DNA of 32,039 bases from Planctomycetota bacterium. Lineage in GTDB: Bacteria; Planctomycetota; Phycisphaerae; Phycisphaerales; Phycisphaeraceae. Below are positions 17,061 to 18,224 of this stretch, one piece after another (within the stretch, counting starts at the first letter, position 1; each line of letters opens with the position of its first letter). The position numbers and the translations under genes were made by a program. The notes beneath the pieces were generated by a model. The model searched no databases, was not told the origin of the DNA, and saw only the letters and a program-made list of their open reading frames with translations. Location: NCBI GenBank assembly GCA_021784455.1, contig JAJXSS010000005.1, positions 1-32,039 of the forward strand, read 5' to 3'.

Positions 17061-17447
17061 TCAGCCGAGCTTCTTCTGAACAAACTTCACGATGGTGTCC
17101 ACGGTGAAGATATTGGAGAAGTCGGTCACTTTCCGGCTGGCCTCGAAGGCCGTCAGGTCGGCGAAGGGGATGCGGTTCTTCAGTTCGGCCATGCCCGCAT
17201 CGGTGACCTTGCCGTCCTGCACGTACTTGGGATCGTTCAGCACGCTCTCGGGCATCAGTTCGCCCTGCTGGATCTTGATGTTGAAGGCCTTTTCCAGGCG
17301 GAACACGATGTCCAGGTAGTCGATCGACTCGGCGCCCAGGTCGGCCGAAAGCTTGGCCGACAGGGTCACCTCGTCCTCGTCCACGCCCAGGGCGTCGACC
17401 AGCACATCCTTGACCTTCGCGAACACTTCATCCTGCGACATCGCCAT
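17061..17447 (-). CDS. Acyl carrier protein (extended, ~128 aa)
   Basis: VKDVLVDALGVDEDEVTLSAKLSADLGAESIDYLDIVFRLEKAFNIKI; candidate phosphopantetheine Ser in ESID; start ATG 17447 with GGAG upstream. Confidence 0.9.
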   Translation of the reverse strand: MAMSQDEVFAKVKDVLVDALGVDEDEVTLSAKLSADLGAESIDYLDIVFRLEKAFNIKIQQGELMPESVLNDPKYVQDGKVTDAGMAELKNRIPFADLTAFEASRKVTDFSNIFTVDTIVKFVQKKLG

Positions 17448-17466: not shown

Positions 17467-17661
17467 CCACGAAGACACGAAGGCACGAAAAGAGAATTCA
17501 GAGTTTAACACCAAGATCACCCAGATCACCAAGCAAGAGGGTATGAGAAGGTGTAGTTTTGCCTTTTGTTCAGTTCTTGTCTCGATGCCTTTGGGCATCT
17601 GGTGTCCTGAGCGGTTCCCTTCTCTTCTGCTGTTCTTTTTCGTGCCTTTGTGACTTCGTGG
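17467..17661. repeat. ~195 bp non-coding element with 28 bp imperfect terminal inverted repeats
   Basis: Left CCACGAAGACACGAAGGCACGAAAAGAG (17467-17494); reverse complement of right end (17634-17661) CCACGAAGTCACAAAGGCACGAAAAAGA: 23 of first 25 positions match. Confidence 0.8.
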
Positions 17662-17662
17662 A

Positions 17663-18058
17663 TCATTCTTTTTCCAGCAGCGCCAGGCGAAACCGCCCTT
17701 GCACCGCCGGCTCGTCGTTTACGCTCCCCACCCCCTGGAACTCCCAGCCTTGGCCGGGCCCACCCCCCGCCGACGGCCGCAACGTCACCTCGACTTTGAG
17801 GCTTTGTCCCGGGCGGACCATGTTCCCGTAGCGGATATTGCGCACCTCCGCCAGCACCAGGGGCCGGTCTGGAGGGGCCTGGTCCACCAGAAACGCCCGG
17901 CCCGCCTGGACCATGGCCTCGAGCATCATCACCCCGGGCAGCACCGCGAAGCCGGGGAAGTGGTCGGCCAGGTATTCCTCGGCCGAACTGACGCACTTGA
18001 CCGCCACCAGTCCATCCGGCCGGCGCTCGATTACGCGGTCAATGAGCTCAAAACGCAA
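17663..18058 (-). CDS. 3-hydroxyacyl-ACP dehydratase FabZ-like (canonical motif)
   Basis: DHFPGFAVLPGVMMLEAMVQAGRAF; probable TTG start at 18058 preceded by GAGGAAG on the minus strand. Confidence 0.82.
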   Translation of the reverse strand: MRFELIDRVIERRPDGLVAVKCVSSAEEYLADHFPGFAVLPGVMMLEAMVQAGRAFLVDQAPPDRPLVLAEVRNIRYGNMVRPGQSLKVEVTLRPSAGGGPGQGWEFQGVGSVNDEPAVQGRFRLALLEKE

Positions 18059-18224
18059 GGCCGCTTCCTCTCTTTTGGGCCGTGAGTTTAGCCCCCGCAC
18101 CCACCCCACGCAAGCGCGCGGGGCGGGTCGTCCGCATCCAAACGCGCCGTAGCGTCTGGGCTGGCGCAGCAAGAGACCGGGCGGAGCCGAGCCGGCACAA
18201 GATGATGGATCCGGATGCCGGGAC

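Follow-up and report, generated by a model that had tools for sequence, protein, structure and literature searches.

A nested palindrome between fabZ and acp in a planctomycete genome: probable gene-less copy of a GxxExxY-associated mobile palindrome

We analyzed a stretch of 32,039 nucleotides from a Planctomycetota bacterium (hereafter the window), in which a 195-bp element (17467–17661) fills the gap between genes for a FabA/FabZ-like dehydratase and an acyl carrier protein (ACP). This element is one member of a dispersed family of nested palindromes in the window's own genome. Other versions of these palindromes carry a single small gene, GxxExxY, tightly between their arms, and the window feature is probably a gene-less, partly decayed copy of such a mobile palindrome. 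It is most likely a non-autonomous relic, because its inner arm has decayed and no partner gene was found in the assembly. Together, the observations suggest a previously unrecognized small mobile element.

That an inverted repeat fills the fabZ–acp gap was confirmed, as an inverted-repeat search independently recovered the two arms (Table 1), which are each 29 nt long, 90% complementary and 145 nt apart. The 23/25 identity given in the original prediction for a comparison of the 25-nt ends was upheld by eye, and a single base does separate the element boundary from the fabZ-like TGA stop codon (17663–17665, minus strand). The other end is located 19 nt ahead of the ATG of the ACP gene, whose long product shares 54–59% identity with the same long ACP in named Planctomycetota MAGs. 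Two internal details were amended. The hairpin GATGCC-TTTG-GGCATC is present and perfect, but its position had been given as 17585–17600 and is corrected in Table 1. The CACCAAG stretch is periodic, as described, but it also serves as the left arm to an inner inverted repeat enclosed by the first. The right arm of this inner repeat is decayed in the window copy and clear in other copies.

Table 1. Features of the fabZ–acp element and its neighboring genes, in window coordinates; those of the two inner arms are approximate.
Feature	Coordinates	Strand	Basis
Outer left arm: TTGAA-type end and CACGAAG units with a free spacer base, TGAACCACGAAGACACGAAGGCACGAAAA	17463–17491	+	Inverted-repeat search
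Inner left arm, TTTAACACCAAGATCACCCAGATCACCAAG, CACCAAG units	17504–17533	+	Matches inner arm TTGAACCACCAAGnnCACCAAG of other copies
Small perfect hairpin in loop region	17584–17599		Direct reading; paired in DNA fold
Inner right arm, decayed: GAACCGCTCAGGACACCA versus consensus GAACCACCAAGGACACCA, 15/18 by eye	17601–17618	-	Read directly, then compared with other copies
Outer right arm; terminal bases overlap the fabZ-like stop codon	17637–17665	-	Inverted-repeat search
FabA/FabZ-like dehydratase gene, upstream of element	17663–18172	-	PF07977, E = 3e-14; translation
Acyl-carrier-protein-like gene, downstream of element	17061–17447	-	PF00550, E = 6e-9; translation

Many further copies were found in the window's genome (G000; 4.17 Mb in 528 contigs, 71% complete), and no known RNA family accounted for the window element. 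In that genome the end motif CCACGAAGNCACGAAG had 55 fuzzy matches at up to one mismatch, compared to 0 for the reversed control, and the inner motif had 57 at up to two mismatches, compared to 4 for its control. The window element folds with z-scores, relative to shuffles, of -6.9 as RNA and -7.0 as DNA. With z-scores of about -7 and 55 end-motif matches against 0, the element is beyond what would be expected by chance. The copies are ~72–240 bp long with ends of TTGAACCACGAAG...CTTCGTGGTTCAA or variants, and the motif of the outer left arm recurs in many of them. Many also enclose an inner TTGAACCACCAAG...CTTGGTGGTTCAA palindrome, a kind that is seen alone as well, so that the architecture is nested, with CACGAAG units outside and CACCAAG units inside.

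The repeat unit consists of seven conserved bases and a free spacer, and the window element is made of arrays of such CRCVRAG-type inverted units. Conservation of the heptamer is biased by the motif used in the search, and a comparison of the spacer bases is unbiased. In G000 and in the relative G022, the two arms agree in their spacer bases at or below the level of chance, and in the relative G006 somewhat above it. The sequence of the unit has thus been kept more than perfect pairing.

The family is distributed patchily. Among 41 relatives, the exact motif was multi-copy only in G000 (18), G006 (64) and G022 (31), and its count was 0 in most; at the family level it was multi-copy in 3 of 25 genomes, with most of the others lacking it. 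A scan of named genomes with a nested gapped pattern was too loose, with paired CACGAAG-like arms in only 3/108 stretches, and was not counted as evidence. At the 23 loci with a fabZ orthologue, an ACP-like frame is next in order, and the fabZ–acp spacer is 1–135 nt in all relatives but one (216 nt). The window spacer is 215 nt, and subtraction of the 195-bp element leaves 20 nt. Empty orthologous sites had been proposed as a check on insertion, and the spacer at the orthologous site is shorter in almost all relatives.

In G022, eight copies are 90–98% identical over 150–178 bp, occur in both orientations and have unrelated flanks, and these represent recent copying in that relative. A ~150-bp subfamily in G006 provides a direct occupied/empty comparison for nesting: the copy L289:1804-2070 has an extra heptad-type palindrome in its loop, and the sister copies L289:1197-1348, L287, L328 and L330 have the empty site. 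Further array types wrap or sit inside elements in G022 (L293-L310) and G006 (L281, L290, L314, L325). Their units, CGCCAAG, ACGCGGATGA and GCAGATT, form nested palindromes of differing unit sequence. The target-site duplication that had been suggested for examination did not materialize: no consistent direct repeat was observed at 73 element ends, and a 4-mer shared in G022 belongs to one subfamily.

One element in G006 (L282) has, between CACGAAG arms, an ORF for a GxxExxY protein (TIGR04256, E = 1e-38; PF13366), and the arms of the window type match those around this gene. The cognate transposase with matching ends anticipated in the original prediction thus has a counterpart in so far as matching arms surround a gene, but that gene encodes a putative nuclease and not a classical transposase. 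Following this find, GxxExxY genes in general were examined for flanking arms. In the family, inverted repeats scoring at least 15 flank 28 of 29 GxxExxY genes versus 0 of 29 fabZ genes, and across the phylum 26/29 GxxExxY genes are flanked (shuffle maximum 14). When genes of the same loci were compared, 51/58 GxxExxY genes were flanked versus 2/119 other ORFs (Fisher 4e-34). The arms are arrays, mostly of period 8–10, with units of CACAGAG, CGCAGAG, CGCCAAG, CACGAAG, CGCGAAG, CACGGAG and relatives of these. On plasmids of other phyla, four of six GxxExxY genes are flanked (Sphingomonas, Gemmatirosa, Bernardetia, Bacteroides), and two do not have the layout. GxxExxY is present in 138 of the 294 sampled genomes of the phylum, or about half. 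The assembly of the window's genome (71% complete) yielded no GxxExxY gene, including by a profile search at E = 10 run without a dedicated positive control; the gene may lie in the missing part of the assembly or have been lost.

Arrays and gene also vary together across genomes. We used the excess of the generic pattern CCRCVRAGNCRCVRAG over its control, per Mb, as a measure of array density. Over 51 genomes this excess rises with the GxxExxY gene count (rho 0.69, p = 2e-8), and the relationship persists at rho 0.58 for genus-level averages, the sole phylogenetic correction applied to these cross-genome correlations. Of the 18 genomes lacking GxxExxY, 17 have at most 2.8 excess matches per Mb. 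The remaining one is the incomplete genome of the window, with 54 matches to the generic pattern. For 73 units, similarity of the arms tracks similarity of the protein (Mantel rho 0.51, 0/2000; distant pairs 0.43, 0/1000). The arms of the G022 gene (CGCCAAG) are of the same type as the outer ring of the gene-less elements in G022, and those of the G041 genes (CACAGAG, CGCCAAG) are common gene-less units in G041. On these data, arms and GxxExxY gene form one unit. Co-variation is not proof of recognition, because joint inheritance yields the same signal, and the role of GxxExxY in moving the palindromes is one that we infer.

Residues G31, G33, E36, Y39, D75, E85 and K87 are invariant in 42 GxxExxY sequences, and the invariance of the catalytic D75, E85 and K87 is consistent with an intact PD-(D/E)XK site. 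A structural model (pLDDT 93.5), for which four plasmid-derived rows were left out, was closest in Foldseek to Cas4 SSO0001, lambda exonuclease, LHK-Exo and AdnAB nuclease domains. The E-values of these matches were only moderate (2e-3 to 1.5e-2). PADLOC gave only weak Cas4 and PDC-M36A matches, and a sequence search of the PDB with GxxExxY returned none. Taken together, these results favor a nuclease that processes DNA over a classical transposase.

The arms of the proposed mobile palindrome are inverted arrays of 8–10-bp units, with consensus CRCVRAG and a free spacer. We hypothesize that the nuclease, perhaps with host enzymes, would recognize the repeated units or the hairpin or cruciform they form. 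It would cut or resect DNA at the arrays, leading to copying of the unit into new sites, and gene-less copies could be spread in trans by the same nuclease. New sites would be mostly intergenic, including the loops of older palindromes. The fabZ–acp copy probably arose by an insertion immediately after the stop codon of fabZ. Within the transcript it would fold into a long hairpin, possibly affecting acp expression incidentally. That GxxExxY is the enzyme of a new minimal class of mobile element, with a parallel class based on the four-helix-bundle protein of rRNA intervening sequences (IVSs) and 7-bp arrays, is a broader proposal that we advance tentatively.

The parallel class comes from genes of the PF05635 four-helix-bundle family (23S_rRNA_IVP), which have inverted arrays of ~7-bp units on either side at 21 of 30 loci (L363-L392). 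Their units include TAGGGAG, GGGTTTA and ATCGAGCC, among others, and two such genes occur in the window's genome (G000:C157:3888-4196 and C497:2335-2559). This parallel, which recalls rRNA IVSs, strengthens the idea of a general class, and it also leaves room for a rival explanation in which the palindromes are themselves mobile or self-copying, moved by host replication or repair acting on hairpins or by an unrelated enzyme. GxxExxY could then be a mere passenger, as two unrelated small genes have the same layout, the window's genome is rich in elements with GxxExxY undetected, and target-site duplications were not found. We consider this rather unlikely, though it is the alternative that survives best. 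Against it, each type of gene has its own repeat period (8–10 versus 7), array density follows the number of GxxExxY genes, arm and protein sequences co-vary, and the nuclease site of the protein is intact.

The other alternatives fared worse. The original prediction had also proposed an RNA spacer or a hairpin controlling acp expression, and a cis-acting RNA hairpin selected for control of fabZ–acp mRNA processing, stability or translation would fit the location within an operon and the strong predicted RNA fold. We now regard this reading as highly improbable. It was weakened by the dispersed copies at unrelated genes and by the much shorter fabZ–acp spacers of relatives, in which the element is absent from this site; in addition, the spacer bases in G000 and G022 do not pair beyond the level of chance. 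A known RNA family was rejected, as the window had no Rfam match at gathering thresholds, and likewise a promoter or terminator, none being called at the element. Any copy within an operon could nevertheless affect expression.

A repeat of the REP/REPIN type moved by a Y1 HuH transposase (RAYT) is less probable still. These systems (REPtron, TnpA-REP) are similar in that their short palindromes are scattered over many intergenic positions and the repeat also stands, inverted, on both sides of a small nuclease-type gene. Y1_Tnp genes occur in most relatives, with two in G000. However, the enzyme fold in the family described here is PD-(D/E)XK and not HuH Y1, and the elements are larger and nested, with arms that are arrays of 8–10-bp units. 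REPs are defined by a GTAG/GTGG tetranucleotide at the foot of the hairpin (PMC6006769), and no such foot was observed at the element ends. Y1 as the mobilizer was rejected: the repeats neither flank nor accompany Y1 genes, which are not near the arrays and are flanked by a different class of repeat, and the number of Y1 genes is not correlated with array density (rho 0.21, n.s.). GTAG-type inverted repeats beside Y1 genes are a known feature of RAYT/REP systems. Loci with Y1_Tnp in relatives (L246, L247, L248, L250, L255), which served as the positive control for the flank test, carry inverted repeats of the GTAG or CGTAGGGTGGG type alongside the Y1 genes. Least probable of all is an iteron-like array that would be bound by a host protein of architectural or regulatory function and have no tie to mobility, as the conserved units and free spacer base resemble iteron binding sites but the array is patchily present within one family, has recent near-identical copies with unrelated flanks, and varies in unit sequence between genomes together with the GxxExxY sequence.

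The preferred reading, a GxxExxY-associated mobile palindrome, overlaps with two other known kinds of element. The window element is short and non-coding, with terminal inverted repeats and many dispersed copies, which is the anatomy of MITEs such as ERIC, RUP, NEMIS and Nezha (70–300 bp, 15–30 bp TIRs, intergenic). Unlike with those, neither a parental IS with a known transposase nor a target-site duplication was found for the family, and its TIRs are arrays of tandem units. The MITE-like interpretation offered originally is supported by the dispersed copies, patchy distribution, shorter spacers in relatives, near-identical copies with unrelated flanks and the gene-bearing version. The rRNA IVSs with an S23p/four-helix-bundle ORF (PF05635), for which mobility has been proposed (PMC4990558), are similar in having a small ORF within the element and ends that form a long stem. 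The window element differs from them in lying outside rRNA, between fabZ and acp, without a PF05635 ORF, and its type of array goes with GxxExxY, whereas the PF05635 genes of this family use ~7-bp arrays. As for the GxxExxY family itself (TIGR04256/PF13366, PDDEXK_3), which the libraries used list without a function, its genes are enclosed by arms with the same type of unit and have intact PD-(D/E)XK residues; the window copy differs in carrying no such gene.

The novelty of the link between GxxExxY and palindromes is judged against open-access papers, among which no description of it was found. A paper that names GxxExxY does so only in passing; the PF13366 match was unrelated by its title and abstract, and the sequence string of the element turned up only unrelated work. 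If the new-class reading is true, one Cas4/lambda-exonuclease-like nuclease between arrays of 8–10-bp units would define an element whose gene-less palindromes spread in trans and nest, an arrangement resembling a REPtron but powered by another enzyme fold. GxxExxY would gain a testable role, in a family that occurs in roughly half of the genomes sampled from the phylum and on named plasmids from several further phyla, and otherwise unassigned intergenic repeats of the CCACGAAG, CACAGAG and CGCCAAG types would be parts of one kind of element. The rRNA IVSs would be a visible example of a more general type of element, and their movement would become approachable, because their four-helix-bundle gene is arranged in the same way, with another repeat period.

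Two further loci had noteworthy gene content. On a plasmid of Sphingomonas parapaucimobilis (L393, 1492-1920), fabD and fabG enclose a GxxExxY gene that has CGCGAAG arms; its presence in a fatty-acid operon, as in the window, is probably a coincidence. At 2006-2775 of L312 (G036:C9), CACGAAG arms ~770 bp apart surround a 93-aa ORF without a family match, which is possibly another gene carried between arms of this type.
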